From Gordonia polyisoprenivorans (GTDB lineage Bacteria; Actinomycetota; Actinomycetes; Mycobacteriales; Mycobacteriaceae): 64,000 nucleotides of DNA. Positions within the stretch are counted from its first letter, which is position 1. Each line of letters opens with the position of its first letter. The notes beneath the pieces were generated by a model. That model searched no databases, was not told the DNA's origin, and was given only the letters and a program-made list of their open reading frames with translations. The position numbers and the translations under genes were made by a program. Positions 43,524 to 60,152 of the stretch are shown here, piece by piece. The stretch lies in the NCBI RefSeq assembly GCF_017654315.1, contig NZ_CP072203.1, forward strand, positions 620,001 through 684,000. Direction: 5' to 3'.

Positions 43524-43788
43524 TCAGCGTCGAGCGGCCAGCCAGATCGCGTGGTCGATCTCCCACGGCGTGACGTTGTGGCCAAGCTCTTTCGAGCACA
43601 CGGGAGCCGCAGCCAGGAATGTAGTCCTTCGTGAGCTGAGGATCGACCGGGACGCCGAGATCGCTGAACCACCGGCGCACTTTGCGGTCGGGTTTGATCC
43701 GGTCGTCAGGCTGGAGTCGGCACGATGGCTCGCCGAAGAGTCGAACCACCCTCCGACCCATGGCTTGGATCGAATTGTCCGCACGCAA
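43524..43788 (-). pseudogene. Short protein broken by a frameshift
   Basis: The first part (MGRRVVRLFGEPSCRL ... VPVDPQLTKDYI; ATG at 43761, TTG at 43788) is natural-looking. Near 43615-43625 sense moves to the next frame, which gives VCSKELGHNVTPWEIDHAIW and stops at 43524-43526. The joined ~85-aa product looks like a small basic protein ending in a conserved TPWEIDHAIW helix. It is divergent from the 43816 gene, 27 bases away. Confidence 0.5.
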
Positions 43789-43815
43789 AGAATCGGTGCC
43801 GGGTATTCTCTACTT

Positions 43816-44502
43816 ATGGAATGGGTTTCGGCGACGACCGCTGCGGTGGCAGCAGTTGGTGCAGCAGCTTCGGCATGGTTTACTCGGCAAACGACTAAAG
43901 CCAGCCGACGATCGCTCGTGTCCGGGCGTCTCTTGTCTGCCTATGCCGAAATGACGCGTGCACTTACCGAGATTGTGTACGCGGACCGCGACCGACGGTC
44001 AGCAATATATCAGCGATTCGTTGCGGCCCGTTACGACGCCGAGGTTGTGGAGTCAGCTGCTCTCGCTGGAACGGAATTGAATCGGGAGATCGAGACTACT
44101 GGGACCTGGCTGCGCGACGTTGCAAGTAGCCTCTGTGTCGCAATAATCGATGACAACTTTGAAGATTCGCGCAATATTCAGTTACAGGTGGAGGGTGGAC
44201 GGCGGACGAACGAACCGACGGAGCTGAATGATGATGAGCGAGCACTTGTGACTAAGAGTTCCTATTATCTGCTTGTGACCAACGTGCTCTCCGATCTACC
44301 GCAGCCGGAATCGCGTTTACTCCCTGGCTGGGAGGCGTATGCGCGGAAGAAGATTACCGTTGGGGCCGGATCGGCGAATCCCAGAGGTGTGGACGCGCCA
44401 ACTTCCGACTACTCATTACAGCGACAGCGGGTACTGAGCGATTTCATCGAGAGTTGGTTCCGATGCTGGTGCATACAGGCGGCACGCTCCCTTTCTAAGT
44501 AG
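43816..44502 (+). CDS. Membrane-anchored protein, unknown, at the edge of the AT-richer insert
   Basis: A 228-aa protein from ATG 43816. One N-terminal transmembrane segment (VSATTAAVAAVGAAASAWF) is followed by a ~200-residue cytoplasmic helical part (SGRLLSAYAEMTRALTEIVY ... DFIESWFRCWCIQAA). Codons use A and T in third positions far more than genes to the left, as does the following NACHT gene, so both were probably gained together. The 184 bases between them hold no gene. A helper or sensor role for the NACHT protein is a guess from position. Confidence 0.55.
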   Translation: MEWVSATTAAVAAVGAAASAWFTRQTTKASRRSLVSGRLLSAYAEMTRALTEIVYADRDRRSAIYQRFVAARYDAEVVESAALAGTELNREIETTGTWLRDVASSLCVAIIDDNFEDSRNIQLQVEGGRRTNEPTELNDDERALVTKSSYYLLVTNVLSDLPQPESRLLPGWEAYARKKITVGAGSANPRGVDAPTSDYSLQRQRVLSDFIESWFRCWCIQAARSLSK

Positions 44503-44686
44503 ATGAGAGCTGACTCGTAGTTCAAGAACAGAGTGTGCGCACGCATTACCTATGCTAGGTTACTATGCTCGCGAAATTGACCCTATTGCGAACAACCAAG
44601 GACTAGTGCGCGGCCCGGAGGGCGGATGACCTCGTATGAGCGGCTAAAATGTGAGCAGAACTATCCAAATGCGTTAGACCAACAGC

Positions 44687-47600
44687 GTGCGACGCATACA
44701 AGCGAAGGATGAACTGTTGTCGGAGCTGGCGGCCACCGAAGTCTATGACACGATGTATCACTCTTATGCAGAATCCGAGAATCCGCATCGAACAATCTAT
44801 CACGCCCTCCCAATTCTCGACTTTCAACTGCGGTTTGTCGCAATTCTGGCTACCGGCTACGTTCGGCACTCCGGTATATCAGGGGCAAAGCTGAACAGAT
44901 CACTCGGTTTCGGGACCTTGATCGCAACCCTGAAAGGTATCTCGAAAGATATAGACGAAGGTACGCAGAATCTGTCTAGGATCCAGAGCCTGGTGGATCA
45001 GGTGATTGGTGTGATAGGGACACCGGTCAAACTGCCGGACTCCGGTAAGCCGAGAACTATAACTAGCATCAGAAATCTTGCCTCTCACAGCTCGCCGATT
45101 CCGGATGATATCGATATAAACCGTGAAGTCGACGCAGTCTCAGACCTGATTGTCAATTTTCTTTCATCATGCAGGGTTGAATACTCTGGAGGAGAGTGTT
45201 CCATCATTGATGATCAGGAAAATTCCGTGATCGATATCTACCCTTTGATACACTCGACTTCAGCTGGCACATGGAACCTCTACTCCAGGGCGAAACAGTC
45301 ATCCTACACTTTCAGTGTGCATGGTGGCTCCTCTTTCGATACAAGTATTGGTGAAAAATCTAAACCGGAGATTGTCAAATTTATTAGGGAACACGATCTA
45401 TCCCGAAATGATGAGTTGCAGATATCGGCCTTCCATTCGGACGCCATAAACGATTTGTCCACCTTTGCCGAGGCTGATACGAAGCCGACCTTCCTCGACC
45501 AGCAAAGTGAGTTCACGGTTTTCTGGACCCGTGCATTCGGTACAGGATCACAGAATCGAGCTGATACATTCCGTCTGGCCGCTGATTTTCAGCGGCTATG
45601 GCGAGATGACAGCGGATCATGGACCCCTTACTCACGACTTCTTACGGAAATAACTGGATGGTCTAACGTAGCTAAGAGACTGTCGCATTTCTACAGAAGA
45701 GAGCTGGATAGCATTATTGCTCAGGAAGCGGAAATGCTGGGCTTCAGACTTGCATCAGATCGATCACTTGTGTACCCCGAGGTGCGGGTCACAGACTTGG
45801 ATGGATCGCGACCTAGACGTACTGACTTTTCGGACGTGATCAAAAAAATGCTCGAGGACCTAGGCGGCCTTAGCGGTCAGACGCATATCCTCTTCATAAA
45901 TGCTGACGCTGGTGCAGGAAAGACTAGGTGCATGTTGCAGGCTGCAATCGACCAGAGCGATAAGGTTGCAGAATCCAACGATGGGTACAGTTTACCCCTG
46001 CTTCTGTATGTGCGCGCCCACGGGAATGCGATGTCGAATATTAACGACGCAATAGACGCGGCAGTTGCCACCACCAGAGCGTTAACCCAGCAATCTGTCG
46101 GCACCCTGTCTCGAAACGGGCTCCTAGCCATAATGATTGACGGCTTCGACGAGTTTGTTGGTGATTCCTCGTATTCTGATGCGATCGGATCGCTTAAAGG
46201 TTGGCTGGCTGCGCTGGGCGGTAGAGGGGCAATGGTGATTTCCGCACGATCAAGCTACTATCTGAACCAGTACCGGTCCAGCGTTAACCGTGCGGTTGGT
46301 CCGGACGCGCCAGCAGTTCGACATCGTATAGCGACGCTATTGCCGTGGACTGAGGCAAAGGTAATTGAGTATGCGGCAACTTTCGGCCTGGAGGGACATC
46401 TAGTCCGTTCCTTACCCAAGGGTGAAAGGCATGCTCTTCGTCTCCCATTCTTCGCGCACGCCTTCGTAGAGTTGCACCTAAGTGATGAAGCATCATCGAA
46501 TGGTACCTCAGCACTGAGTTACCTCGTAAGTAGCTACATTAAGAGAGAGTCTGGGAAACTTACAGATTCTATCGGGGATGGGGCGCTAATGACCGCTGTG
46601 GAGATCGAACAATTATTCGAACATGCTGCGGAAACAATGTCAGAGAACTCGGAGCGGATCATCACATTGCCAGAGCTCGAGTATCTCGCTGAGATGGCAA
46701 TTGGCGAAGAGCTGCGCGCACGGAAGGGGCTGCGAGAGCGTCTTTCTACAATGTGTACAATTGCTGCGCAGTCCGGTCAAAGGCATCAATTCGGGTTCAC
46801 CCACGAAGTGTTTTATGACTTCTTTCTTGCCGGTTCCATAATCCGGTATCTTGCAGGTTCCGACTCGCGTACCGCGGACGTGCAGCGACTCTTGCGGGCC
46901 TCTCCATGGAGAGATGGGACGGTAGACCGAATCATTTCAGATGAGACTTCGCGATCTCATTTGATCGAAATAGCTGATCGGCGTTACGGCGGGATGGTAT
47001 CAGAGCTGGGCTCAAATCAGTCAGTAAACATCGGAAGCATTATCTCGGCCGTGATTGAGCGAGGAGAGTCGGTCGATGGGCAGTGGGAAATATCTGGTGC
47101 AACCGTATCTGATGAACTCAACTTGTCGGGATTCAGCGGTAAACTGTTGTTAGGCAACTGTCAGCTGGAGTCGCTCAAGCTGCCTGGAAAGAAGGGGTGG
47201 GGCGTCGACCTGAGTGGAACATCTATCCGGCAACTTACCGTTAATGGACAGAACCTCGCCGGGGCGACGAATATCTCATCGAATCTAGTTGAGAATGTTG
47301 TTTGCTCAGGAGAGTTCATCTACCGGCCATCGGAAATTGCAGCCGTGCTTGTCGATAGAGGTGCGGAGGTTGTCGATAGAAAGATTGAAGTGACGACGCC
47401 CAATGCTGAGCTAGATACCTACAAGGCGATTCTTAGGGTTCTCATCAGTAGAGGTGCCACGACTGTGATCATAAAAGCGGATGACTGGTCGCTAATTGAT
47501 GCAAGGCTTGATTCTGATATCCCAAATCACAAGGAGTGGCGGGAGTTCGCGCGGCGACTAATGCGCAACGAGCTAGCAAAGAGAGAATCATTTGCATCTA

Positions 47601-47698
47601 GTGGGCGGGCGAAGTATCGGCTCAGACTGACGGTCTCCGCGGAAGACATTCTCGCGCAAAAGGACGACCCAAGGATAAGTCAGTTTTGGGTAGAATAG
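44687..47698 (+). CDS. STAND/NACHT NTPase with N-terminal HEPN-like RNase motif (candidate antiphage protein)
   Basis: A 1003-aa cytoplasmic protein. N-terminus (1-170): helical, with R129-N-L-A-S-H134, the Rx4H signature of HEPN ribonucleases. Residues 180-380: unknown. NACHT core: Walker A NADAGAGKTRCML (about 405-417) and Walker B IMIDGFDEF (about 482-490), with the two-acid DGFDE form typical of NACHT. Then a helical arm (FFAHAFVELHL ... FGFTHEVFYDFFLAG, about 595-720). C-terminal third: beta-solenoid-like (ATVSDELNLSGFSGKLLLGN), the usual place for a ligand sensor. Known bacterial NACHT/STAND proteins detect phage products and fire an effector; here an RNase would be the effector. Start GTG 44687. 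AT-rich codons and the adjoining restriction system support horizontal gain. Exact architecture not recognised. Confidence 0.75.
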   Translation: MRRIQAKDELLSELAATEVYDTMYHSYAESENPHRTIYHALPILDFQLRFVAILATGYVRHSGISGAKLNRSLGFGTLIATLKGISKDIDEGTQNLSRIQSLVDQVIGVIGTPVKLPDSGKPRTITSIRNLASHSSPIPDDIDINREVDAVSDLIVNFLSSCRVEYSGGECSIIDDQENSVIDIYPLIHSTSAGTWNLYSRAKQSSYTFSVHGGSSFDTSIGEKSKPEIVKFIREHDLSRNDELQISAFHSDAINDLSTFAEADTKPTFLDQQSEFTVFWTRAFGTGSQNRADTFRLAADFQRLWRDDSGSWTPYSRLLTEITGWSNVAKRLSHFYRRELDSIIAQEAEMLGFRLASDRSLVYPEVRVTDLDGSRPRRTDFSDVIKKMLEDLGGLSGQTHILFINADAGAGKTRCMLQAAIDQSDKVAESNDGYSLPLLLYVRAHGNAMSNINDAIDAAVATTRALTQQSVGTLSRNGLLAIMIDGFDEFVGDSSYSDAIGSLKGWLAALGGRGAMVISARSSYYLNQYRSSVNRAVGPDAPAVRHRIATLLPWTEAKVIEYAATFGLEGHLVRSLPKGERHALRLPFFAHAFVELHLSDEASSNGTSALSYLVSSYIKRESGKLTDSIGDGALMTAVEIEQLFEHAAETMSENSERIITLPELEYLAEMAIGEELRARKGLRERLSTMCTIAAQSGQRHQFGFTHEVFYDFFLAGSIIRYLAGSDSRTADVQRLLRASPWRDGTVDRIISDETSRSHLIEIADRRYGGMVSELGSNQSVNIGSIISAVIERGESVDGQWEISGATVSDELNLSGFSGKLLLGNCQLESLKLPGKKGWGVDLSGTSIRQLTVNGQNLAGATNISSNLVENVVCSGEFIYRPSEIAAVLVDRGAEVVDRKIEVTTPNAELDTYKAILRVLISRGATTVIIKADDWSLIDARLDSDIPNHKEWREFARRLMRNELAKRESFASSGRAKYRLRLTVSAEDILAQKDDPRISQFWVE

Positions 47699-47745
47699 TC
47701 CCGCGCGCAGAGTGGTCTAAATGGACTGAGCGTTGAATAGCCTGG

Positions 47746-48018
47746 ATGGTGGGTTTGGTTTTATCGGACGATTTCCTAACGTGGATAGACAGATTTCAAC
47801 AAAGCGCGGCGCATCTGATGCGCCTTGGCGGCGAACGCTACACGGCCGAGGCATCTCTATTTGTCGGGGTGTTCTGTTGGGCGACTCGTCGTGGATTGTC
47901 TTTCGAGGCAATCGGAATACCTAGCTCACGCAGTAGTCTTTGCTGCAACGCAGAGTTACGGCTCCACTTGTTCGAGGGGATAGCGTACCGGCGGTCATGG
48001 ACTTGCGGTCGGCGTTAG
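47746..48018 (+). CDS. Possible small gene or gene remnant
   Basis: A 90-aa frame from GTG 47746. The first ~60 residues (DDFLTWIDRFQQSAAHLMRL ... FVGVFCWATRRGLSFEAIG) look like natural helical protein; the last ~30 do not. No family recognised. It may be the end of a lost gene between the NACHT gene and the remnant at 48244. Nothing else was seen in 47699-48243. Confidence 0.25.
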   Translation: MVGLVLSDDFLTWIDRFQQSAAHLMRLGGERYTAEASLFVGVFCWATRRGLSFEAIGIPSSRSSLCCNAELRLHLFEGIAYRRSWTCGRR

Positions 48019-48243
48019 CCACAGGTTGTCATCAATGAGTTCTTGATAGATCAGACGCAAGGGTAGGCTCTCTGACCGCTTCGTGTTGGAGGTTCTGGGT
48101 AGAGAACGAATCTAAGCTGTGCGCCGCATCAAACGTGCCCCGATCGAATGCAACACATCGCACAAGGTGTTGAGCAGTCCTCGGTCTGTCGGTAGGGAAT
48201 CGCGATTGCCGGAGAATTCAGCATACCTCCGGTGAGTCGTCCG

Positions 48244-48441
48244 TTAACGCGCGTCACAGACACCAAGCGTGAACTCATCGACGGTCTCGCCGAAATCCAC
48301 GTAGCAGCGCAACGTCCCGTACTTCTCCTTGATCTGTGCATAGGTGAAATCGGAGGTAATGCAGGTGGGCGTCCGGTGTAGCCGAGACAGCAACGGATAC
48401 CAGCCGATGTGGACCGTGCAGTCCACCTCCGGCGATGCCAT
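48244..48441 (-). pseudogene. Remnant of a small conserved protein
   Basis: 65 codons resemble the middle of a family of small phage/accessory proteins: VHIGWYPLLSRLHRT, then FTYAQIKEKYGTLRCYVDF. Relatives usually continue into a Cys-pair tail, absent here. The N-terminus also seems short. It lies at the right border of the AT-richer insert and is probably decayed. Confidence 0.35.
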
Positions 48442-48471
48442 CGCCGGAGGCAGCTGTGTCAGGTTCGGCTA

Positions 48472-49890
48472 TCAGGCTGCCCCACGGTCCGACTCGGGCT
48501 GGGCCTCGTCGTCGGCGACCCCTGCCAGCGCGGCCAGCGCCTCACTTAAGAGCCGGTCGATAACCGAGTAAACCGTGCTGCAGGACTTCTCGATCTTCTG
48601 TGCGTTCTTCTCGATGGCACCGGCGGTCTTCTTAATGTCGTCGATTCCGCTCAGCTGCTCGACGGCGGCGGTGATCTTCTCTTCGGCTGTCGCGATCTCG
48701 TGCGCTCCGGATCGGTTCGCTGCGGTGAGCGCAGACGCGCGCAGCAGCATGATGACGGTGCGCAGGAGATCGGAGTCGTCGTTGAGCGGGTCGAAGGCGA
48801 GGACGATCCGGCGCTTTCCCAGCACACGGATCGTCTCACCGCAGTTCTGCTCGGCGCTCCGGACGAGCCCGACAGCCGCGTCGGCCTGGCGGTTGCGCTC
48901 GGCTTCGTCGAAGTACGCACCCCACCCATCTCGCTTGGAGTCGGTCACCTCGACGACCACACGGGCAGCGCCCCCGTCAACGGTAAGTACTCCGTCTCCC
49001 TTCTTCGATCGAGGGATTGCGCCGACGACGGTTCCGGTCTCGCAGTACTCGTCACCCATACCGGCGGCGATGGTCTGAAGGACCTCGTGGATCTCGTTCT
49101 CGTAGGTACCGCCCTTGATGGGGGAGACCTTGCTGACCGATGCCTTCGCCTCGGCGACCCGCAACGCAGTCACCACGATGTCGAGACGCTCGGACAGCTC
49201 CGAGTGCTGCTTCGTCAGCTGCTCGGTGAGCGACTCCTGGCGCTTGGCGAGCTCAGCGGAGTGCTTGGCCATCGGCGACGCAGGATCGGTGGGATCGAAC
49301 TGCTTGGCGGCCTTGGTCAACAGCTCGGTGGTGTTCGCAGCCGCTCGCTTGTCCAGATTGGCGGCGAACTGCTCGAGCAACGGTGCGAACCGGTCGATCA
49401 CCTCCGGGTCGGTGCCGCCAAAAAGACGCTTGAGTTCCGCTTCGGTCTCTTGCCGCATGGTGGCGATCGCCTCGGTCAGCGACTTGCGCGTCGCCTCGTC
49501 CGCCTCCCGGAACGCCTTCTGCGCGTCGGCGGCTGCCTTGGTCACGGCCTCCGACGCGGCTTTGACGCTACGGTCGGTCATCGCTGCGGCTTCCGCGGTC
49601 GACGTGCTGGCCTTCTCGCCGAGCTCAGTGATCATTCGTTCCAGTGCCTGCGCTTCCTGCGCTTGGCCGGTGGCCGAGAGCGCATGGGCTCCGACAGTGA
49701 GCGCCTTGGCAACAAACCCGGCGAGATCGGCCTCGGCCAAGGTGGCGGGGTCATCGACAAGTGCACCGCGTTCCCCGGTTGTCCATCGCTGGGCTTCGCG
49801 CACGACGGCCTTGTCGGTCACCGTCACGTTCTCGATCACCACCGAGGTGGTGTCGGCATCGAAGTGCGCGGAGCTGGGTGAATCGATCAT
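48472..49890 (-). CDS. Coiled-coil protein with restriction-nuclease-like C-terminal domain
   Basis: A 472-aa protein. About residues 70-265 are a long coiled coil of heptads (EAAAMTDRSVKAASEAVTKA, LAKRQESLTEQLTKQHSELS). A globular domain follows (about 275-385) with the order E (GGTYENEIHEVL), GDG (KKGDGVLTV) and VVVEVTDSK, which fits a PD-(D/E)xK nuclease core, then GWGAYFDEAERNR. This resembles DUF2130-type and RmuC-like proteins. It is divergent from the type I restriction operon and shares with it a 44-bp near-palindrome, so it is probably co-regulated and part of the defence island. Start ATG 49890. Confidence 0.6.
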   Translation of the reverse strand: MIDSPSSAHFDADTTSVVIENVTVTDKAVVREAQRWTTGERGALVDDPATLAEADLAGFVAKALTVGAHALSATGQAQEAQALERMITELGEKASTSTAEAAAMTDRSVKAASEAVTKAAADAQKAFREADEATRKSLTEAIATMRQETEAELKRLFGGTDPEVIDRFAPLLEQFAANLDKRAAANTTELLTKAAKQFDPTDPASPMAKHSAELAKRQESLTEQLTKQHSELSERLDIVVTALRVAEAKASVSKVSPIKGGTYENEIHEVLQTIAAGMGDEYCETGTVVGAIPRSKKGDGVLTVDGGAARVVVEVTDSKRDGWGAYFDEAERNRQADAAVGLVRSAEQNCGETIRVLGKRRIVLAFDPLNDDSDLLRTVIMLLRASALTAANRSGAHEIATAEEKITAAVEQLSGIDDIKKTAGAIEKNAQKIEKSCSTVYSVIDRLLSEALAALAGVADDEAQPESDRGAA

Positions 49891-49963
49891 GTTGGCCTCC
49901 TACGGCTCGTGGCGGTCGCGGATCGGCTGCCGCACCCAGATTGCGATGGCGCATTTAGGATCA

Positions 49964-50007
49964 CAAGTGCATTCACTGTTAAGCCCCCTTACCAGTGAAT
50001 CAACTTG
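49964..50007. promoter_or_regulatory. 44-bp near-palindrome in the divergent defence promoter
   Basis: The 22-base left half CAAGT..ATTCACTG.TAAG is repeated inverted in the right half (17 of 22 positions pair). The core ATTCACTG/CAGTGAAT arms are perfect. It lies between the coiled-coil nuclease-like gene (start 49890) and the restriction operon (start 50077), with room for both promoters. The HTH at the N-terminus of the first operon protein makes autoregulation plausible. Confidence 0.65.
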
Positions 50008-50076
50008 TAGGCGGCGATCGAGCGATTAAGGTTCTCGGTATTGCCTGCAACGACGCCACGAGGAGGTGACCGACCG

Positions 50077-51975
50077 GTGAGCACACTGACGATGCAGGAC
50101 ATCGCAGTCCTGGCGAGGGTATCGCGGCCGGCCGTCAGCCAGTGGCGGAAACGTCCGGTGGTGCGTGGAGAACTGATCCCGTTTCCGACGCCGGTCACCA
50201 CCGTCGACACAGTCGAGCACTTCGATGAAGCAGACATCATGGCGTGGTTGGAGCGGACCGGCAGGGGGAAGAACCGAGAGGAACAGCACCTTGACGTCGG
50301 TGCATACTCTCTGACCGACGGCGTCCGGTACGACGACGTGGTACTCCTGTTGGCGCTGTACGCGCTGGCAGGCGTGGACTTGGCAAGAGCGTCACACGCA
50401 GACCTTGTGGCCGCGGCAGTGGCAGCCGACCCGGCCGATGAGCTGATCGTCAGCGAGGTCGAGTCGCTCGATGTCGACACCGATACGTTGACGTTCACCG
50501 AGCAGCTCATCGATGCGTCCCTCGGTACCCCCGATGCCCTTGCACGGTTGGAGCGAGGACGCCTCGGCCGAGCCCGGGGCGCCCGAGACCTGACCGATGA
50601 GGCGATGGAGCTAATGCGCCACGTTGTCGAGGTCGCGGTGGCTCACGTCGGCGACGACGTAGCCATCGTGCCCGCCGGTGCACCTGATCTGGCGCTTGCC
50701 GTCGCAGATGTCGGTGGTCGGCTTGTGGTCGACGGACAAGTGGGCGATCCACGTAGTCTCAGGCGGCGAGCCATCATCGCTGAGGTGGAGACAGACACCG
50801 CTCCACGCGGCCCGGCGGTATCGGTCACCTCGCTGCTCGGAGCCGAGATCGCGGACGTCCTGGAGGCCGTCGATGGGGTCCTGCTCGAGCTGAACGACGG
50901 AGACGTGGGGGTGATCGTGGCCTCGGCAGCCGCGTTGACCGATCATCTCGCCGGCGACCTTCAGCGGCGCAGGTCGGAGACGCTCAAAATCAGCAATACG
51001 GTTGCGGCGCTGCGTCTCCCGCGCGGCATATGGCGCGAGGCGCACCGACAGAGTCAGGCGATGTGGATCTGCAAGGGCGGCGCAGGGGTCGACCGCCTAC
51101 AGGTGGCAGACCTCAACACGCTCGACCCGACGGAGCTCGGTGACCTCGCGAGCGACATCGCCGCGGCACTTGACCATGACGTCCGCAGAGCGTTCCGGTT
51201 CACTCGACCGCGGGAGATGTTGCGCATCCGAACCAGCGGAACCGTTGTCCCGCAGGGTACTCAGGCCCAGCGTCTGCATCCCCGACGTGCCGCATCGCAT
51301 GCTGATCGGGTCCATGAGGCCACGCTGCAGACGTCTGAACCGGCACCAACCGTCGACATCCTGATCTCCCCGTCGGCAGGTCGGTTTCGGACACAACAGT
51401 TTTCGATCGACGAGTTGATCGAACAGAAGCTGGTCAAGGTCATGTCCGGCAATAGGATCGGCCCGGAGGATGCCGACCCGGAGGGGACGGTCGCTGTGCT
51501 ACCCGATCGTCCGTTTCGGCTGGACCCGTTCGATGCTGCCCAGCGCTACCGCAGGGCCCGCCGGACCGAGCCCGGCGACATCGTTTTTGTCGAGAAGCCA
51601 ACGCCGCGTGCCGTCATCGACGCGGCCGGTGGGTCGCTCGTCGCGACGCCGGCAAAGATTCTGCGCATCAATCGCAATGCGCCGTTCGGACCGCACACCA
51701 TCGCGGCGATCATCAACACACGGTGCGCACCAGGCAGTGGATGGCGGAAGTGGTGCGTGCCCGAACTCGCGGCGGACGAAGCCGCTCGCTTGGAAGCAGC
51801 CTTGGCGGAGGTCACCGGCTACCAGCGCGCCGTCGAACAGAAGGCCGCCGCAGCGACGGACTTGATTGGCGCACTCATTGATGGGATCGCCGAAGGCGAG
51901 ATCTCGCTGGACGCCGACAAGACCACCGTTGGGATAACGGCAACAGCAACCACAGTAACCACCGATACAGCGTGA
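50077..51975 (+). CDS. HTH protein with type I specificity-like C-terminus, first gene of the restriction operon
   Basis: A 632-aa protein from GTG 50077 (AGGAGGTG ribosome site). Residues 1-60 form a DNA-binding HTH (TMQDIAVLARVSRPAVSQWR). Residues 85-330 resemble, in layout, the N6-methylase fold of class I methylases, but there is no NPPF or DxFxGxG motif, so it should not methylate. The C-terminal ~190 residues read like an HsdS half: a target-recognition-type stretch (GDIVFVEKPTPRAVIDAAGG, ILRINRNAPFGPHTIAAIIN) and the closing helix (LAEVTGYQRAVEQKAAAATD). It overlaps hsdM's open frame start. It may tune expression or recognition of the restriction system; the function is unknown. Confidence 0.6.
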   Translation: MSTLTMQDIAVLARVSRPAVSQWRKRPVVRGELIPFPTPVTTVDTVEHFDEADIMAWLERTGRGKNREEQHLDVGAYSLTDGVRYDDVVLLLALYALAGVDLARASHADLVAAAVAADPADELIVSEVESLDVDTDTLTFTEQLIDASLGTPDALARLERGRLGRARGARDLTDEAMELMRHVVEVAVAHVGDDVAIVPAGAPDLALAVADVGGRLVVDGQVGDPRSLRRRAIIAEVETDTAPRGPAVSVTSLLGAEIADVLEAVDGVLLELNDGDVGVIVASAAALTDHLAGDLQRRRSETLKISNTVAALRLPRGIWREAHRQSQAMWICKGGAGVDRLQVADLNTLDPTELGDLASDIAAALDHDVRRAFRFTRPREMLRIRTSGTVVPQGTQAQRLHPRRAASHADRVHEATLQTSEPAPTVDILISPSAGRFRTQQFSIDELIEQKLVKVMSGNRIGPEDADPEGTVAVLPDRPFRLDPFDAAQRYRRARRTEPGDIVFVEKPTPRAVIDAAGGSLVATPAKILRINRNAPFGPHTIAAIINTRCAPGSGWRKWCVPELAADEAARLEAALAEVTGYQRAVEQKAAAATDLIGALIDGIAEGEISLDADKTTVGITATATTVTTDTA

Positions 51976-51995
51976 TGAGAAGGGAATTTACACAG

Positions 51996-53621
51996 ATGGC
52001 TGCACGACGAAAGGCGGAGCTGACGGCTCCGTCCACGATGAAGGAACTCAAGGACACGTTGTGGAAGGCTGCCGACAAGCTGCGGGGCTCGCTGTCGGCG
52101 AGCCAGTACAAGGACGTGATCCTCGGGTTGGTTTTCCTCAAGTACGTGTCCGACTCCTATGACGAGCGACGCGAAGAGATTCGGCGTGAACTGACTGCCG
52201 ACGGCTTCGACGAGGAGCAGATAGACGAAGTCATCGACGACACCACCGAGTATCACGGCGCGGGCGTCTTCGTCGTCCCGCCGATCGCGCGGTGGTCGTT
52301 CCTCGCGGACAACGCCAAAGGCTTCACTCCCGGTGACGGTACTCCCGACAAGAACATCGGCCAGCTGATCGACGAGGCCATGGATGCGGTGATCGCAGCC
52401 AACAAGTCGCTGGGCGGAACGCTGCCGCGAATCTACAACCGCGACAACATCGATCAACGACGCCTCGGTGAACTCGTTGACCTGTTCAACAGCGCTCGAT
52501 TCAGTCGCCAGGGCGACCACAAGGCTCGCGACCTGATGGGCGAGGTGTACGAGTACTTCCTCGGCAACTTCGCTCGAGCGGAAGGCAAGCGGGGTGGCGA
52601 GTTCTTCACGCCACGCAGCGTGGTTCGGGTGATTGTCGAGGTCCTTGAGCCGACCAAGGGTCGCGTGTACGACCCGTGCTGCGGTTCGGGCGGCATGTTC
52701 GTGCAGACCGAACAGTTCATCTATGAGCACGACGGCGACCCAAAGCAGGTCTCGGTCTATGGCCAGGAGGCTATTGAGGAAACCTGGCGGATGGCGAAGA
52801 TGAACCTGGCCATCCACGGCATCGACAACAACGGCCTCGGTTCTCGCTGGGGCGACACCTTCGCGCGAGACCAGCACGCAGATGTACAGATGGACTACGT
52901 AATGGCCAACCCGCCGTTCAACATCAAAGACTGGTCGCGAAACGAAGAGGACCCCCGCTGGCGTTTCGGCGTTCCGCCGGCTCGCAATGCCAACTACGCG
53001 TGGCTGCAACACATCCTGTACAAGCTCGCCCCCGGTGGCAAGGCCGGCGTGGTACTCGCCAATGGGTCGATGTCGTCGAACAGCAACGGCGAAGACGATA
53101 TTCGTGCCGAGATCGTTGATGCAGACCTCGTCTCGTGCATGATTGCGCTACCCACACAGTTGTTCCGTAGCACCGGAATCCCGGTGTGCCTGTGGTTCTT
53201 CGCCAAGGATAAGACAAAGGGCCCGCAGGGCTCGATTGACCGCAGTGGTCAGGTGCTGTTCATCGATGCCCGCGAGATGGGCTACATGGTGGATCGCGCC
53301 GAGCGGGCACTCACGGAAGATGAGATCGTCAAGATCGGCGACACCTTCCATGCGTGGCGTGGGTCTTCCTCTGCCGCGGCGAAAGGCCTCGAGTACGAGG
53401 ATGTTCCGGGCTTCTGCAGGTCGGCGACGCTCGAGGAGATCAAAGCTGCCGGCTACGCACTCACGCCTGGCCGGTATGTCGGGGCGGCCGTGGTCGAAGA
53501 CGACGGTGAGCCGATCGACGAGAAGATTGCGCGGCTGAAGACCGAACTGTTTGCGGCGCTGGATGAGTCGGCGCGAATGGAGAAGGTTGTACGGATGCAA
53601 ATGGAGCGGGTCGATGGGTGA
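51996..53621 (+). CDS. hsdM: Type I restriction-modification, methyltransferase subunit
   Basis: A 541-aa N6-adenine methyltransferase of type I systems. The HsdM N-terminal helical domain (TMKELKDTLWKAADKLRGSL), SAM motif DPCCGSGGMF (about residue 226) and catalytic NPPF (about 305) are intact. It works with HsdS to methylate the recognition site and with HsdR to cut unmodified DNA. The frame runs in from 51972 (GTG overlapping the previous stop), and ATG at 51975 is another option; 51996 gives the usual N-terminus. It overlaps hsdS by eight bases. Confidence 0.93.
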   Translation: MAARRKAELTAPSTMKELKDTLWKAADKLRGSLSASQYKDVILGLVFLKYVSDSYDERREEIRRELTADGFDEEQIDEVIDDTTEYHGAGVFVVPPIARWSFLADNAKGFTPGDGTPDKNIGQLIDEAMDAVIAANKSLGGTLPRIYNRDNIDQRRLGELVDLFNSARFSRQGDHKARDLMGEVYEYFLGNFARAEGKRGGEFFTPRSVVRVIVEVLEPTKGRVYDPCCGSGGMFVQTEQFIYEHDGDPKQVSVYGQEAIEETWRMAKMNLAIHGIDNNGLGSRWGDTFARDQHADVQMDYVMANPPFNIKDWSRNEEDPRWRFGVPPARNANYAWLQHILYKLAPGGKAGVVLANGSMSSNSNGEDDIRAEIVDADLVSCMIALPTQLFRSTGIPVCLWFFAKDKTKGPQGSIDRSGQVLFIDAREMGYMVDRAERALTEDEIVKIGDTFHAWRGSSSAAAKGLEYEDVPGFCRSATLEEIKAAGYALTPGRYVGAAVVEDDGEPIDEKIARLKTELFAALDESARMEKVVRMQMERVDG

Positions 53622-54786
53622 GTGGACTAGGGTGCGGCTCGGAGATCTCATTGAGGTCTACAACTCTCAGAGGAGGCCAATTAAGTCGACGGACCGCGTG
53701 AGTGGCGAAACCCCATACTATGGGGCAAGTGGAGTGGTTGACTCGGTCGACGGCTACACCCACGAGGGTGAATTTCTGTTGATTGCCGAGGACGGGGAGA
53801 ATCTCAGATCGCGTTCGACGCCGATCGCGTTTCGCGCAGACGGAAAGATCTGGGTGAATAATCACGCTCATGTGGTGACAGGAAAGTATTCGTTCGATAC
53901 GAGGTTTCTGGAGCATGCTCTCGCGTTGAGCGATATCTCTGGATACTTGACCGGTAGTGCACAGCCGAAGCTGTCGAGAGCGGCTATGGAGTCCATTGCC
54001 TTGACTGTGCCACTGCCCAGTACCAGAAAGGCCATCGCCGAAGTCCTCGGCGCCCTCGACGACAAGATCGTGGCGAACGGTCGTGTCTCCAGGCGGGCAG
54101 CGGAACTGGCCGCCTCATCGTTCGGCGAGTCGTTCTCAACGACTTTGGAGAATGCGAATTCCCTGGCCGAGCTTTTCGCCAAAGGGCAACTTGAATACGG
54201 TGATGGATACCGGACCAAGAAGTCAGAACTCGCGATGTCCGGTTTCCGGATCATCCGTGCCGCCGATGTGAAGGATTCGGTGGTTCGTTTGTCGGGTTCG
54301 GACTTTGTCTCGGCCGCCTTCTCCCGGCAGATGGGTAGGAAGGTGGCGCTGCCTCGAGACATCGTGCTCACCACGAAGGGCACAGTTGGAAGAATTGCGA
54401 TTGTGCCTGAGTCAGTCGGAAATGCGGTTTACAGCCCGCAGTGCTGCTACTTCCGACTGCCAGAGGCCTCGGCATTGGACTATGGGTACCTGGTCGGTTG
54501 GTCTCTCAGTGACGATATTCAGCGTCAGCTGGCTTTGGTCATGCATAAGAGCGACATGGCGCCCTATGTGAATCTCAAAGACATCGGGTCACTGTCTATC
54601 CCTGTTCCAGACGAGGCCACGCAACGTCGAATTGGCGCTGAACAGCGCGCCTTGATTGAGCTGCAGCACGCTTGCTCGGCGGAGAACGAAGCTCTCGCCC
54701 ACACCCGCGACCAACTCCTCCCCCTCCTCATGTCCGGCAAGGTAACAGTCAAGGAAGCTGAGGAAGAGGTCGGCGGGCTGGTCTGA
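53614..54786 (+). CDS. hsdS: Type I restriction-modification, specificity subunit
   Basis: A 390-aa protein with two target-recognition domains, each followed by a conserved helix. The first half begins GEWTRVRLGDLIEVYNSQR and ends LPSTRKAIAEVLGALDDKIV. The second ends IPVPDEATQRRIGAEQRAL and LLPLLMSGKVTVKEAEE. It determines the two halves of the DNA site for HsdM and HsdR. Codon use is less GC-rich than in hsdM, as often seen where specificity genes are exchanged. ATG at 53614 overlaps the end of hsdM. Confidence 0.92.
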   Translation: MGEWTRVRLGDLIEVYNSQRRPIKSTDRVSGETPYYGASGVVDSVDGYTHEGEFLLIAEDGENLRSRSTPIAFRADGKIWVNNHAHVVTGKYSFDTRFLEHALALSDISGYLTGSAQPKLSRAAMESIALTVPLPSTRKAIAEVLGALDDKIVANGRVSRRAAELAASSFGESFSTTLENANSLAELFAKGQLEYGDGYRTKKSELAMSGFRIIRAADVKDSVVRLSGSDFVSAAFSRQMGRKVALPRDIVLTTKGTVGRIAIVPESVGNAVYSPQCCYFRLPEASALDYGYLVGWSLSDDIQRQLALVMHKSDMAPYVNLKDIGSLSIPVPDEATQRRIGAEQRALIELQHACSAENEALAHTRDQLLPLLMSGKVTVKEAEEEVGGLV

Positions 54787-54836
54787 CGCCGAGGTCGAGC
54801 GAATCCCGTCAGAGTGTCAGAGTCGGAGGAGGTGAG

Positions 54837-56600
54837 ATGAACACAGTCGATCTCGTTGCGCGTTTGCGCAGGTTATGGACCGACCTCACACAGGTGGAGG
54901 TCAAGTCGGCGGCGGGCGGTCTGCCCAAGGACGTCGTGGAGTCGCTAAGCGCATTCGCGAACGGAGACGGCGGAATTCTGCTCCCCGGGCTCTCCGAAGC
55001 TGACGGGTTCGCGCCGGCGCCCGGCTTCAACGTCCGGGCGATGCGTGACGCGTTGGCCACGGCCTGTGCCGACCAGATGGAGCCACCGCTGCGGCCGGCG
55101 ATCGAGATCGAGGAGTTCGAGGGCGCGCTCATCGTCCGAGCGGACATCGACGTGATCGACCCGCTGGACAAGCCGTGCTACGTCAAGATGCGCGGTCACC
55201 ATCAGGGCTCGTTCACCCGCGGCGGCGACGGTGACCGCGTCCTGTCCGCCTACGAAGTTGCCCAGCTGCTGGCCAACCGCACGCAGCCGAAGCACGACCT
55301 CGAACCGATCACCGACGCCACGCTGGACGACCTCGACAGCGAGCTCGTCGATCGACTGATCCGCCGGGCCCGAGATCGGCATCCGCGGACCTTTCGCAAT
55401 CTGGAAGCCAAGGAGGCGTTGGCGCGACTGAACGTGGTCACCCGTGTCTACGGTCAGTGTGTGCCAACCCTGGCCGGCGTCATCTCGCTCGGCAACTACC
55501 CACAGCAGTTCCTCCCGCAACTCTTCGTCGCCGTCGTCGTGTCACCAGGCATCCAGATCGGCGACCAGTCCCCCGACGGAGTGCGGTTCCTGGACAACGT
55601 GACCGTCGACGGTCCGATCTCCGACATGGTGGCGACCGTGGAGGAGGCGCTGCGTCGTAACGTGCGCAAGGCGGCGGTCGTGAAGGGTCTCTACCGCGAG
55701 GACCGCTACGACTACCCGCTGGACGTCATCCGCGAACTCGTCGTCAACGCCATCATGCACCGGGATTACAGCCCGGCATCGCGAGGCATGCACGTCCAGA
55801 TCGAGCTCTACCTCGATCGACTCGTCGTCAACAGCCCCGGCGGACTGTTCGGCGATGTTTCTGCACGCTCCCTTGGCACGGCAGAACAACGCTCGTCGTC
55901 TCGAAACGCCGCAGTGGCCAAGCTGCTGGCTGACATTCCGGTCGACGCACACAGCAACGAGTCGATCGGGGAGAACCGTGAAAGCGGACTTCCCAACGCG
56001 ATGCGGTCGCTGCGTCAGGCAGGCATGAGTCCAGCGCGATTCGACGTCAGCCCCGGACATGTGCGGGTCACTGTGACTGGACATGGCCTTCTCGGTGTCG
56101 ACGTGACCGAGTGGATCAGCAGCCTCGGCGAAGCTGATCTGACGTCGACCCAAGATCTCGCACTAGCAATGGCGCGGGTGACCGGGCGGGTAACCAACGT
56201 CATGCTGCAGGCGTGGGGTCTCGATCGGCTCGCGGCCGGTTCGGCGCTGCGAGATTTGGTGGACCGGGACTTGTTGGTGGTCATCGGTGGCAAGCGGTAC
56301 GCGAGCTATCAGCTGTCGGATCGGGCTATCGCGGTGGCAGAGTCACCGATGTCCCATAAGCGTTCAGCCGATTCGTCGTACTCGAGCACAGAGGGGATAG
56401 CCGCCGACCTCGATGCTGTCGAACAGGCCATAGGCACGGGCCATGTGACCGCCCGCGCCATCGAGGCCGCACTGGGAATGAACTATCGGGCGGTCCTACG
56501 CCGCCTCACCAAACTAATCGACGCGGGCCGTGTCCAGCGAATCGGGCAGCGGCACAGCAGTCGTCAGACATATCGACTCACGAATGAGGACTCAAAATGA
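54837..56600 (+). CDS. AlbA_2 (Schlafen-like) ATP-binding protein within the restriction operon
   Basis: A 587-aa protein. The N-terminal AlbA_2/Schlafen-like domain (about 1-140) has TQVEVKSAAGGLPKDVVESL and FANGDGGILLPGL. A middle GHKL-ATPase-like part follows (YPLDVIRELVVNAIMHRDYS, about 300; YLDRLVVNSPGGLF), and a C-terminal winged helix (about 520-587; ALGMNYRAVLRRLTKLIDAG). It lies between hsdS and hsdR, with a GGAGGAGGTG ribosome site, and overlaps hsdR by four bases, so it is made with the enzyme. Related proteins occur in other type I loci as optional, uncharacterised extras. It could sense nucleic acid or nucleotide and control restriction. Confidence 0.75.
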   Translation: MNTVDLVARLRRLWTDLTQVEVKSAAGGLPKDVVESLSAFANGDGGILLPGLSEADGFAPAPGFNVRAMRDALATACADQMEPPLRPAIEIEEFEGALIVRADIDVIDPLDKPCYVKMRGHHQGSFTRGGDGDRVLSAYEVAQLLANRTQPKHDLEPITDATLDDLDSELVDRLIRRARDRHPRTFRNLEAKEALARLNVVTRVYGQCVPTLAGVISLGNYPQQFLPQLFVAVVVSPGIQIGDQSPDGVRFLDNVTVDGPISDMVATVEEALRRNVRKAAVVKGLYREDRYDYPLDVIRELVVNAIMHRDYSPASRGMHVQIELYLDRLVVNSPGGLFGDVSARSLGTAEQRSSSRNAAVAKLLADIPVDAHSNESIGENRESGLPNAMRSLRQAGMSPARFDVSPGHVRVTVTGHGLLGVDVTEWISSLGEADLTSTQDLALAMARVTGRVTNVMLQAWGLDRLAAGSALRDLVDRDLLVVIGGKRYASYQLSDRAIAVAESPMSHKRSADSSYSSTEGIAADLDAVEQAIGTGHVTARAIEAALGMNYRAVLRRLTKLIDAGRVQRIGQRHSSRQTYRLTNEDSK

Positions 56601-59600
56601 GCATGATCTCCGAATCTGAATGGGAAGCACAGGCATTGGAGTGGCTGGGCGACCAGGAATGGCGACCGATGCACGGTACCGACATCGCGCCAGGAACCGA
56701 GAACGGCCGCACCTCCTGGGACGACATCGTCCTACCCGATCGGTTGCTCGCCAAGATGCGGGAGCTCAACCCGGCTGTGCCGTACGAGTATCTGGTGCAG
56801 GCACGGGCAGCGATCTTGGCGCCGCAATCACAGGACGCGATCGCCGAGAACCACCGCCTCCATGAGTATCTGGTCAAGGGCTACCGCGGCATCAGTTATA
56901 TCGACCACGAGGGGCTCGAGCAGACCCCGACGATCGGGCTCGTCGGAACACGCCCCGAGGACAACGAGCTACTCGCCGTAAAACAGGTGACCGTCCGCAA
57001 CTCCGAGCACCATCGACGCTTTGATGTGGTGCTGTACCTCAACGGTCTGCCGGTCGCCTTCTTCGAACTCAAGCAAGCCGGTTCCGAGCACGCTGATCTC
57101 GCGTCTGCGCACGCCCAGCTGGAGACGTACCTCCACGAGTTCCCTATGGTGTTTCGCTTCACGGTCGTATCCGTGATCAGCGACGGGATCACCGCCAAGT
57201 ACGGCACACCATTCACCCCGCTCGAGCACTATGCGCCCTGGAACGTCGACGACGACGGGACACCGGTCACCACCGGCCACGCGACGGATCCAGACAAGAT
57301 GGGTCTCGAACTCGAGTACCTAATCGACGGTGTGTTCAACCCGGAGCGGTTTCTGCAACTTCAACGCAACTTTACCGCGTTCGACACCGGCGCTGACGGG
57401 TACGTCAAGCGAATTGCCAAGCCGCATCAGTACTTCGCGGTCACCAAGGCGGTGGGCAACACAGTTGCGGCGGCGGAGAGCACTGGTAAGGCCGGAGTCG
57501 TCTGGCACACCCAGGGCTCGGGCAAGTCGATGGAGATGGAGCTCTACGCACACCTTGTCGCGCGTCAACCGAAACTCAAGAACCCGACCTTGGTCGTTGT
57601 CACCGACCGGCGGGAGCTCGATGGCCAATTGTTCGAGACGTTCAATCGCTCCGAACTCCTGGATGAGTCGCCGGTCAAGGTGACGAAGCGTGAGCAACTG
57701 CGCGATGAACTGTCGAACCGCACCACCGGTGGCATCTACTTCACCACGTTGCAGAAGTTCAGTCGCACCCAGGAAGAACGAGAAGCAGGTGCGGATCATC
57801 CGCTCCTGACCGATCGTCGCAACGTCATCGTGATCGTGGATGAAGCACATCGCAGCCACTACGACGACCTCGACGGCTATGCGAGACACCTCGCCGACGC
57901 GGTCCCCAACGCCACCCTGATCGCGTTCACCGGAACGCCGATCTCCTTTGCCGAACGCAACACCCGCGAAGTGTTCGGCCCCTATATCGACATCTATGAC
58001 CTCACGCGTGCGGTCGAAGACGGCGCCACCGTTCCGGTCTACTTCGAGCCGCGACTGATCAAGGTCGGACTCGCCGACGACGTCACCGAAGGTGATCTCG
58101 ACCGGGCAGCGGATGAGGCAACCGCCGGGCTCGACGATGCCGAGCGGGCACAGATCGAGCAATCCGTTGCGGTCATCAACGCCGTATACGGTGCGCCGGA
58201 ACGTCTCAAGTCGCTGGCCGCCGACATCGTCGGCCATTGGGACGGGCGATCCGAATCGATGGAGTGCTTCATCTCCACCCGCGGAAAGGCATTCATCGTC
58301 GCCGCCACCCGTGACATCGCGGCAAGACTGTACGAGGAAATCGTCGCGCTGCACCCCGAGTGGCATGACGACGCGGTCGACAAAGGCGTCATCAAGGTCG
58401 TCTACTCGGGCAGCGCCAAGGATCAGGGGCTGGTCGCCAAACACGTACGACGCGATGCGCAGAACAAGATCATCCAGAAACGTCTGAAGGACGCTGACGA
58501 CGAGCTGCAACTCGTCATCGTCAAGGACATGATGCTGACCGGGTTCGATGCACCTCCCCTGCACACGCTGTACCTGGACCGGCCGCTCAAGGGTGCGCTG
58601 TTGATGCAGACCCTGGCACGTGTGAACCGGACGTTCCGCGGCAAGCCGTCAGGACTCTTGGTCGCGTACGCGCCCCTCGCCGACAATCTGCAACAGGCCC
58701 TGGCCGAGTACACCGAGACCGACCAAGCCAAGCAGCCCGTCGGTCGCGACATCGACGAAGCGGTCGCGCTCACCCGGGAACTCCTCAAACAACTCGACGC
58801 AGTGTGTGCAGGCTACGACTGGCGCGCCAAGGTCAACGAGTCGGACCGCGGTTGGATGAAGGCCGCGGTCGGCCTGACCGACTATCTGAGATCTCCCGAG
58901 ACACCCGGCAACCAGGTGAATGACGACGAAGAGACACTCGGCGCGCGGTACCGCTCACTCGCAGCGAACCTAGCGCGGGCCTGGGCACTCGCAGGCGGTA
59001 AGCGGACGATGGAAGAGCTGCGGCCGACGGTCCAGTTCTATGAAGAAGTTCGAGTGTGGATGGGCAAGTTCGACGCCGCCGAGCGGCAGGCCGGGGGAAG
59101 ACCCGTACCCGAAGAGGTCAAGCGGCTGCTGTCCAAGCTGGTCGCGTCGTCCACGGCGAGTGGTGAGATCGTCGACATCTACGACGCCGCCGGCCTTCCG
59201 AAGCCGTCGCTGTCGGATCTCGGTCCCGACTTCGAGGCCAAGGCCAAAGCCGCATCCAACCCGCACCTGGCGATCGAGGCGCTGCGGGCAACACTGAACG
59301 AGGAATCTACCCGAGCCACCAAGAACAACATCATTCGACAGCGCGACTTCTCGGAACGAATCACAAAGCTGATGAACAAGTACACCAATCAGCAGATCAC
59401 GTCCGCGGAGGTAATCGCTGAACTGATCGAGATGGCCAAAGAAGTTGCTGCCGAAGGTAATCGCGGAAAGCGCTTCACGCCCGCTTTGTCGGAGGACGAG
59501 CTAGCGTTCTATGACGCCGTCGCCAAGAACGAATCGGCGGTCGAATTTCAGGGCGACGATGTTCTCGCTCAGATCGCGAGGGATTTGGTCGGCATCATGC

Positions 59601-59797
59601 AGCGGGATACGAAGTTCGACTGGACCGTACGCGACGATGTACGCGCCAAGCTGCGGTCCTCGATCAAGCGTCTGTTGGTTAAGTACAAGTACCCGCCTGA
59701 CAAACAGCCGGCGGCCATCACCACGGTGTTCGAGCAGATGGAGATGATGGCGCCGCGGTTTGCCCAACAGAACAGTCCGGTGGGTGATTATGCCTAA
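56597..59797 (+). CDS. hsdR: Type I restriction-modification, restriction/translocase subunit
   Basis: A 1066-aa motor and nuclease. N-terminal nuclease region has FDVVLYLNGLPVAFFELKQA (D..E-x-K, about 140-160). The helicase core has Walker A WHTQGSGKSMEME (about 305), DEAHRSHYDD (about 414), FTGTPIS, and later LARVNRTFRGK. The C-terminal helical part binds HsdM. Length is normal. The ATG at 56597 overlaps the AlbA_2 gene stop. All catalytic parts look intact, so the system is likely active. Confidence 0.93.
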   Translation: MSMISESEWEAQALEWLGDQEWRPMHGTDIAPGTENGRTSWDDIVLPDRLLAKMRELNPAVPYEYLVQARAAILAPQSQDAIAENHRLHEYLVKGYRGISYIDHEGLEQTPTIGLVGTRPEDNELLAVKQVTVRNSEHHRRFDVVLYLNGLPVAFFELKQAGSEHADLASAHAQLETYLHEFPMVFRFTVVSVISDGITAKYGTPFTPLEHYAPWNVDDDGTPVTTGHATDPDKMGLELEYLIDGVFNPERFLQLQRNFTAFDTGADGYVKRIAKPHQYFAVTKAVGNTVAAAESTGKAGVVWHTQGSGKSMEMELYAHLVARQPKLKNPTLVVVTDRRELDGQLFETFNRSELLDESPVKVTKREQLRDELSNRTTGGIYFTTLQKFSRTQEEREAGADHPLLTDRRNVIVIVDEAHRSHYDDLDGYARHLADAVPNATLIAFTGTPISFAERNTREVFGPYIDIYDLTRAVEDGATVPVYFEPRLIKVGLADDVTEGDLDRAADEATAGLDDAERAQIEQSVAVINAVYGAPERLKSLAADIVGHWDGRSESMECFISTRGKAFIVAATRDIAARLYEEIVALHPEWHDDAVDKGVIKVVYSGSAKDQGLVAKHVRRDAQNKIIQKRLKDADDELQLVIVKDMMLTGFDAPPLHTLYLDRPLKGALLMQTLARVNRTFRGKPSGLLVAYAPLADNLQQALAEYTETDQAKQPVGRDIDEAVALTRELLKQLDAVCAGYDWRAKVNESDRGWMKAAVGLTDYLRSPETPGNQVNDDEETLGARYRSLAANLARAWALAGGKRTMEELRPTVQFYEEVRVWMGKFDAAERQAGGRPVPEEVKRLLSKLVASSTASGEIVDIYDAAGLPKPSLSDLGPDFEAKAKAASNPHLAIEALRATLNEESTRATKNNIIRQRDFSERITKLMNKYTNQQITSAEVIAELIEMAKEVAAEGNRGKRFTPALSEDELAFYDAVAKNESAVEFQGDDVLAQIARDLVGIMQRDTKFDWTVRDDVRAKLRSSIKRLLVKYKYPPDKQPAAITTVFEQMEMMAPRFAQQNSPVGDYA

Positions 59798-60152
59798 GCC
59801 TCGATCCATCGATCAGCTTTGAAGGGTGTGGTGAGTTGTGTTGAGCGGGTGCAGGTCGGCATTGGGTGCGGGCGTGTCGCCGATCTCTGACGTCTGCGTG
59901 TTTCACCGGGCTTCGGCGTCGGGACTGGTGGGCCGGCCGGGCTAGCTTCAAGCTGGATGTTGTCGCGCGATCATGCTGTTCAACAACAGGTCTAGGGTCT
60001 CCGTCACGACAGACTCGTAAATGCCAGGAACGAGCGGATCGGTCACGATTGGGAGTAGATCACGAGTGGCCGACATCAATAGGCACAACTCGCCTTTGCT
60101 TCGTTTGTCGACTGCAGCCGTACAACGAGGTCACGGTCTAGGGTTGATACGC
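59798..60152. other. Intergenic space after the restriction operon
   Basis: About 355 bases without a convincing gene. It must hold the end of the restriction operon and the promoter of the gamma-glutamyltransferase gene. No clear hairpin, direct repeat or attachment-site-like duplication was found. Confidence 0.4.

Follow-up and report, generated by a model that had tools for sequence, protein, structure and literature searches.

In a 64,000-nucleotide stretch of Gordonia polyisoprenivorans DNA (contig NZ_CP072203.1, positions 620,001 to 684,000; this whole stretch is called the window), a gene encodes a predicted NACHT-type STAND NTPase with an N-terminal HEPN-like domain. The protein probably belongs to a previously unrecognised family of STAND immunity proteins whose single conserved core drives either of two unrelated RNases, HEPN fused in cis or NYN from a close-coupled upstream gene. 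The core comprises a pre-NACHT module, the NACHT NTPase, a pentapeptide-like stretch and a C-terminal domain. The exchange of HEPN and NYN on this core is the new point with respect to a preliminary description of the same DNA, which had proposed an RNA-cutting NACHT defence protein with a HEPN-like motif and a solenoid-like sensor end. What that description observed is confirmed, and its reading holds in large part, the RNase activity and the defence role being predictions.

The open reading frame (ORF) at 44687-47698 on the + strand is intact, with 1003 amino acids and zero internal stops. The preliminary description started it at GTG 44687; an alternative start, TTG 44717, gives 993 amino acids. 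An AAGGA stands 7 nt before TTG 44717, and the database copy P0002 (993 amino acids) begins at this TTG, so that it is the likelier start and GTG 44687 is probably ten codons too early. Residue numbers nevertheless follow the 1003-residue frame from GTG 44687 throughout. The features referred to below are as follows.

44717..47698, + strand: gene for the HEPN-NACHT STAND protein, likely TTG start, 993 amino acids (ORF, AAGGA spacing, P0002 start)
44732..45196, + strand: putative HEPN-like effector domain at the N-terminus, residues 16-170 (28/28 sequences keep R and H; marginal profile matches)
45071..45088, + strand: R-N-L-A-S-H motif, R129-H134, predicted RNase catalytic pair (conservation)
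45197..45421, + strand: linker, residues 171-245, outside the NYN-branch alignment and without a match (profile comparison)
45422..45700, + strand: pre-NACHT module, residues ~246-338, common to the NYN branch (hhalign A7 vs A8)
45902..45925, + strand: Walker A, residues 406-413, A-D-A-G-A-G-K-T (motif and alignment)
46139..46153, + strand: Walker B/NACHT motif D-G-F-D-E, residues 485-489 (motif and alignment)
46241..46252, + strand: S-A-R-S, residues 519-522, invariant, at a sensor-1-like position (alignment)
47075..47266, + strand: pentapeptide-repeat-like stretch, residues ~797-860 (profile A6 vs PDB)
47267..47695, + strand: C-terminal domain, residues ~861-1003, alignable across the two branches, without a family match (alignment and profile)
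43695..48253, no strand: low-GC block, bounded by 43694, where collinearity with genome G514 ends, and 48254, where that with genome G508 begins (genome comparison)
43695..59988, no strand: variable defence hotspot, replaced in G514 by ~41 kb with DISARM, Zac and type IV restriction genes (genome comparison)

Searches of 5.8 billion protein sequences, in each of which the best 7,999 candidates were scored, yielded at least two relatives of the window protein, at 35% and 31% identity. Peptide patterns derived from the alignment of these two were then used to scan genome contigs of 84,980 species, giving 54 loci, 27 of them long, with the HEPN part, and 27 short. The scan detects only loci that carry one of the two patterns, which lie around DGFDE and RSSYYLNQ; selection for R129 and H134 was therefore impossible, and the invariance of DGFDE and SARS is inflated. 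Relatives in the HEPN branch show 21-34% identity and come mainly from Actinobacteria, with three Betaproteobacteria. Contigs of the short branch are labelled Acidobacteria, Gemmatimonadetes, Methylobacteriaceae, Myxococcota and others, and 26/27 are metagenome bins. Matches at E<=0.001 in 39/394 genomes of the window's class were, besides the gene's own genome, all partial, at most 45 bits and mostly confined to the NACHT segment, and were not accepted as family members.

The 28 aligned sequences are 26 long loci, P0003 and the window protein. Because one in-frame stop breaks the frame of locus L015, this locus was omitted from the alignments and the tree, and L055, at a contig edge, from the tree; alignment A2 omits L015 and L020 (a near-copy of L021), A5 omits P0003, L015, L021 and L023, and A6 and A7 omit P0003, L015, L021, L026 and L028. 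L012 is the source of P0004 and was counted once, and the near-copy pairs L020/L021, L041/L043 and L050/L051 make the counts partly non-independent. L015:10001-12913, from Achromobacter, is itself a HEPN-branch member that retains the predicted catalytic R and H alongside its stop.

In the 27 short loci the encoded core has ~755 amino acids, aligns with residues ~246-1003 of the window protein and lacks a HEPN part. Among the 24/27 short loci examined in detail (L047, L051 and L055 being the others), 21 have a same-strand ORF of 192-352 amino acids, counted from the first in-frame start, directly upstream of the core at a spacing of -65 to +36 nt; the exceptions are L042, L043 and L052. The upstream proteins bear the motifs LVDYxN, QKxVD and an SDDDD-like one, and D10, N13, D171, D177, D196 and D198 are invariant in all 19 aligned. 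A profile built from 21 of these proteins, with L042, L047, L051 and L052 left out of its construction, located the gene or a fusion in 25/27 short loci, in 0/27 long loci and nowhere in window positions 34001-59000. Its misses among the short loci are L043, where the start of the core ORF is altered and which, having no NYN neighbour, was counted as a miss, and L055 at its contig edge. Upstream sequence was lacking for L023 and came to ~1.3-4 kb for L006, L020 and L021, so the absence of NYN is weaker there. At L052:8537-11941 the NYN domain and the NACHT core occupy a single 1134-amino-acid ORF, a cis version of the two-gene system.

A tree of the core (54 sequences, 595 columns) separated 28 HEPN-bearing from 26 HEPN-less sequences into two clades with support of 1.0 and 0.973 under midpoint rooting. 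Repeated swapping of effectors was rejected on this ground, and one exchange suffices. The HEPN branch has no general neighbour gene, the widest cluster being an ABC-ATPase-like ORF, recognised by eye, at 6/27 long loci and one short locus. These patterns suggest that one core joins either HEPN in cis or a NYN/PIN-like gene in trans, two unrelated predicted RNases. Since the HEPN and NYN superfamilies are both RNases, RNA cutting is their common denominator, and the pairing of one core with both gives it independent support, beyond either of the two weak domain calls.

The assignment of the central part to the NACHT-type STAND NTPases, as proposed in the preliminary description, is supported by motifs and by family profiles. 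The NACHT clade is defined by a Walker A together with a Walker B that contains D-G-x-D-E, and GAGKT at 409-413 and DGFDE at 485-489 are present in the window protein just as that description had them. AGxGKT, DGFDE and SARS are invariant in the 28 sequences, DGFDE and part of SARS having lain in the search patterns; the S-A-R-S at 519-522 presumably plays a sensor-1-like role. Pfam NACHT matches 26/27 rows of A2 at E<=1, with a best value of 1.3e-7, and the relative P0003 lies above the curated cut-off of the model.

At the N-terminus, the prediction of a HEPN-type RNase effector is supported chiefly by conservation. R129-N-L-A-S-H134, noted in the preliminary description, is indeed present and is the one Rx4H in the protein; 1.69 are expected in a shuffled protein of the same composition, a chance-level count, so the motif by itself proves nothing and it is the conservation that counts. 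Both R129 and H134 are invariant in 28/28 sequences, window protein included. Within residues 1-170 only G74, R129 and H134 are invariant, and in the whole protein 5/75 Arg and 2/22 His are. When the N-terminal profile (25 rows) was compared with the entire PDB, the four best matches were CRISPR-associated chains (8y7f, 8y75, 8y7g and 8y6z, which from their motif we take to be HEPN enzymes). They align along 'KNVKGWRNSVAHGG' in such a way that R and H coincide, at E 0.066-0.12. Aligned by hhalign with nine HEPN_Apea sequences (the search gave ten loci, nine of which were used in A9), the same profile scored E 7.9e-4 at the motif, with a probability of only 24.7, against E 0.17-0.55 for three control pairings, and the full-length profile selected the same place (E 0.0064, probability 5.9). 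For HEPN_MAE_28990 no seed sequences were obtained (0/100). A crude propensity calculation for the N-terminus, 37% helix, 14% strand and the remainder unassigned, is weakly consistent with the helical character first ascribed to it.

The preliminary description had left ~200 residues between the HEPN and NACHT parts unplaced. Over residues ~246-338 these match the N-terminal ~110 residues of the NYN branch (hhalign A7 vs A8, E 9.8e-11 at a probability of 97, against E 0.48 and 0.83 in two control pairings) and thus form a shared pre-NACHT module, while 171-245 are, as described, still without a match. The candidate of one novel domain spanning 171-395 was accordingly rejected for 246-338. At the other end of the protein, a profile of residues 740-1003 matched PDB beta-solenoids (3.9e-4), McbG-like proteins (7.1e-4), MfpA (0.010) and Qnr (0.029); the 11 best matches range from E 3.9e-4 to 0.029, for most of them no single stretch passes alone, and the top ones we take to be synthetic 'beta1'-type solenoids. 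The pentapeptide-type matches are confined to ~797-860, and Pfam Pentapeptide_4 appeared at sub-threshold level only, in 2/27 rows. Residues ~861-1003 align in both branches and nothing convincing matched them; the profile's further hits, on 60S L34 and on a metalloprotease toxin of bacterial origin, came at E 0.06-0.14 and were taken as chance. The solenoid proposed for the C-terminal third thus holds for a short pentapeptide-like stretch but not for the rest. By analogy with the remaining STAND proteins, we infer that the C-terminal end would be the sensor.

The gene also stands out in its genomic setting. Its GC content is 51.0%, whereas the window has 65.7% once block 43695-48253 is excluded, and equally low values occur in 4/611 sliding 3-kb windows, in agreement with the AT-rich codons noted earlier. 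It is present in single copy in its own 6.03-Mb genome, which is the only one to carry it among the 59 genomes of the genus searched, the other 58 being without it. The adjoining restriction system of the preliminary description proved to be of type I, with HsdM (51972-53621), HsdS (53551-54786) and HsdR (56597-59797); between the HsdS and HsdR genes lies a Schlafen AlbA_2 plus RecG-C-like protein (54837-56600, + strand). At the left flank the nearest genome within the genus is G514 (95%). Its collinearity with the window, in segments of 94-98% identity, stops at 43694 and resumes at 59989; between these points G514 carries ~41 kb of other DNA that includes DISARM genes (DrmMI, DrmA, DrmB, DrmC), a type IV restriction enzyme, ZacB and ZacC. 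G508, within the 20 kb compared, matches window positions 48254-53621 and 54694-57645 at 81-82%. The STAND gene is absent from both. This comparison marks the site as a defence hotspot, in which 43695-48253 has the appearance of a low-GC block acquired on its own.

Several further elements lie in or near the hotspot. The low-GC block also contains, 184 nt before the GTG of the STAND gene, an ORF of 228 amino acids (43816-44502, + strand; ATG 43816) with a hydrophobic N-terminus; the longer form of this ORF has no Pfam match and is possibly part of the same cargo as the STAND gene. Near both borders of the block lies a 28-nt inverted pair, 79% complementary (43868-43895 and 48556-48583), the most suggestive repeat around it, which could be coincidental or the eroded end of an element. 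Between 48472 and 51975, ORFs of 472 (- strand) and 644 amino acids (+ strand), of no convincing family, precede the type I genes and stay with the restriction genes in G508 at ~80% identity, and are possible restriction accessory genes. The replacement DNA of G514 (contig C35, ~15.6-56.6 kb, L103/L104/L107) also holds a cluster with proteins of 2146 and 1740 amino acids, the second of which matches DpdF and DinG-type helicase models. An HNH endonuclease-like protein (38396-39394, - strand) lies ~4 kb outside the hotspot border in the G514-collinear part, and elsewhere in the window the ORFs 20282-23041 and 28729-31479 (- strand; 919 and 916 amino acids) have N-termini that look alike by eye.

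From the motifs, their conservation, the structure of the family, the NYN partner and the hotspot location we infer that the window protein is, on balance probably, a single-protein bacterial immune switch that senses infection, assembles and cuts RNA through its HEPN domain. NACHT proteins assemble upon activation, and HEPN RNases are usually dimeric with a composite R/H site. The C-terminal part, with its pentapeptide-like stretch and conserved end domain, would hold the NACHT NTPase off until an infection cue arrives; the cue would set off the ATP-dependent assembly of several copies of the protein, in which the N-terminal HEPN domains would meet and the R129/H134 pairs form a composite RNase site. 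Cutting of RNA (tRNA, mRNA or rRNA) at this site would halt the cell and stop phage growth. In the NYN branch, the assembled core may instead recruit or release the NYN nuclease encoded directly upstream.

A number of results weigh against this reading. The window protein itself has diverged too far for the Pfam NACHT model and gives no match to it at E<=1, so that the profile comparison called for earlier succeeded for the family but not for this member. Alone among 27 rows, it also carries Ala in place of Gly at residue 406 of the Walker A; Ala at this position recurs in the NYN-branch loci L030 and L031, and the general P-loop pattern permits Ala at the first Gly. In a Pfam scan with a limit of E 10, no model matched its own N-terminus, and a HEPN model matched 1/25 members (E 0.073), with unrelated models equal or better (best 0.011). 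The similarity to HEPN is thus specific but weak and confined to the motif region; the HEPN effector that had been proposed gains from the invariant R and H, the marginal CRISPR-chain matches and the NYN sister branch, and loses from the missing Pfam HEPN match of the window protein. Pfam NYN (PF01936) matched 8/10 of the upstream proteins at E 1.4e-4 to 0.053, none over the cut-off (best 22.8 vs 24.2 bits), and a comparison of the NYN-like proteins with PDB sequences gave no NYN or PIN match. No relatives were found in phage (50,697 records), plasmid (72,556 records) or IMG/VR sequences. Finally, in the flanks of 22/27 HEPN-branch loci each listed PADLOC family (E<=1e-30) occurred in 1-2/108 proteins (25/63 PADLOC families listed, several of them probably the same protein), an uncontrolled tally and therefore weak evidence. 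With few defence genes in these other flanks, the genomic association with defence is strong for the window gene and weak for the rest of the branch.

Some of these results would suit a general suicide or stress device of the same architecture, one that answers starvation, interbacterial attack or development and is not an anti-phage sensor. Actinobacterial names attach to 24/27 HEPN-branch loci, many of them of filamentous genera, which together with the sparse defence genes around other members and the lack of phage-borne relatives keeps this alternative in view. We nonetheless regard it as unlikely, given the hotspot that holds DISARM, Zac and type IV restriction in a relative, the adjoining type I restriction system, the patchy distribution and the foreign base composition. 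It is more doubtful still that the N-terminus derives from HEPN yet acts as a scaffold or binding domain and not as an RNase: a likeness that does not extend beyond the motif region, together with the missing Pfam HEPN match, could be read in this way, but R and H are kept in 28/28 sequences while nearly all of the domain drifts, and the predicted nuclease of the sister branch is another one, five of whose Asp residues are invariant in 19/19 aligned proteins. A coincidental Rx4H in an unrelated helical domain, which ~1.7 chance occurrences at this composition and the marginal profile E-values might allow, is very improbable when the sole Rx4H is invariant at both ends, against 5/75 Arg and 2/22 His in the protein, and the four best PDB profile matches have R and H in register.

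If one core does drive both RNases, RNA destruction, and not a particular enzyme fold, would be the selected output, and the core would be able to activate an effector that is fused to it as well as one reached through a protein-protein interface. The function of an immune NTPase is often ambiguous when predicted from the effector alone. The two branches would also offer a clean comparison of a NACHT switch with a fused and an in-trans effector, with two catalytic sites to mutate. Against PADLOC the window protein had no match at E<=1, and three of ten further family proteins had matches, all weak (best HEC-01B, 0.0053), the other seven having none; against NCBIfam and Pfam nothing for the window protein rose above cut-off. 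Surveys that use PADLOC or NCBIfam would therefore probably miss the family.

Among known systems, Avs (AVAST) proteins place a STAND NTPase between effector and sensor, as the window protein appears to do; two of the ten relatives match Avs2, at E 0.02-0.06 and over 24-111 residues, and the window protein, as noted, has no PADLOC match. The CRISPR-associated chains 8y7f, 8y75, 8y7g and 8y6z, the best PDB profile match, align on R-x4-H at a marginal E-value but have a different regulatory part. PrrC and RloC are anticodon nucleases. They and similar proteins likewise combine HEPN with an NTPase, often beside restriction systems, but their ATPase is of the ABC type in place of NACHT, as far as the available part of PMC3710099 describes them. 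The accessible text on bNACHT proteins such as bNACHT25 (PMC12169576) gives the same tripartite plan of N-terminal effector, central NACHT and C-terminal sensor; unlike the HEPN domain here, the effectors of bNACHT25/32 are PD-(D/E)XK DNases, and 'HEPN' is absent from its main text.

Bacterial HEPN-STAND combinations were already noted in the 2013 survey of the HEPN superfamily (PMC3710099), and a 2021 study (PMC8195603) counts HEPN among the variable effectors that occur on inactive STAND modules, each in the portion of the article at hand. In the available texts of PMC13092281, PMC10853773, PMC10952713 and PMC12169576 no such pairing appears, and in the literature found, supplements and most subscription papers aside, no NACHT core with exchangeable HEPN and NYN is described. 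The closest relatives in plan are the HEPN-STAND fusions of PMC3710099, which likewise join an N-terminal HEPN RNase domain to a STAND NTPase and are discussed there in terms of defence or cell death. Compared by description only, within the part of that survey to hand, its examples end in TPR, S1 or cold-shock-like domains, whereas in the window protein a distinct pre-NACHT module precedes the NTPase, a pentapeptide-like stretch and an uncharacterised end follow it, and the sister branch uses NYN.

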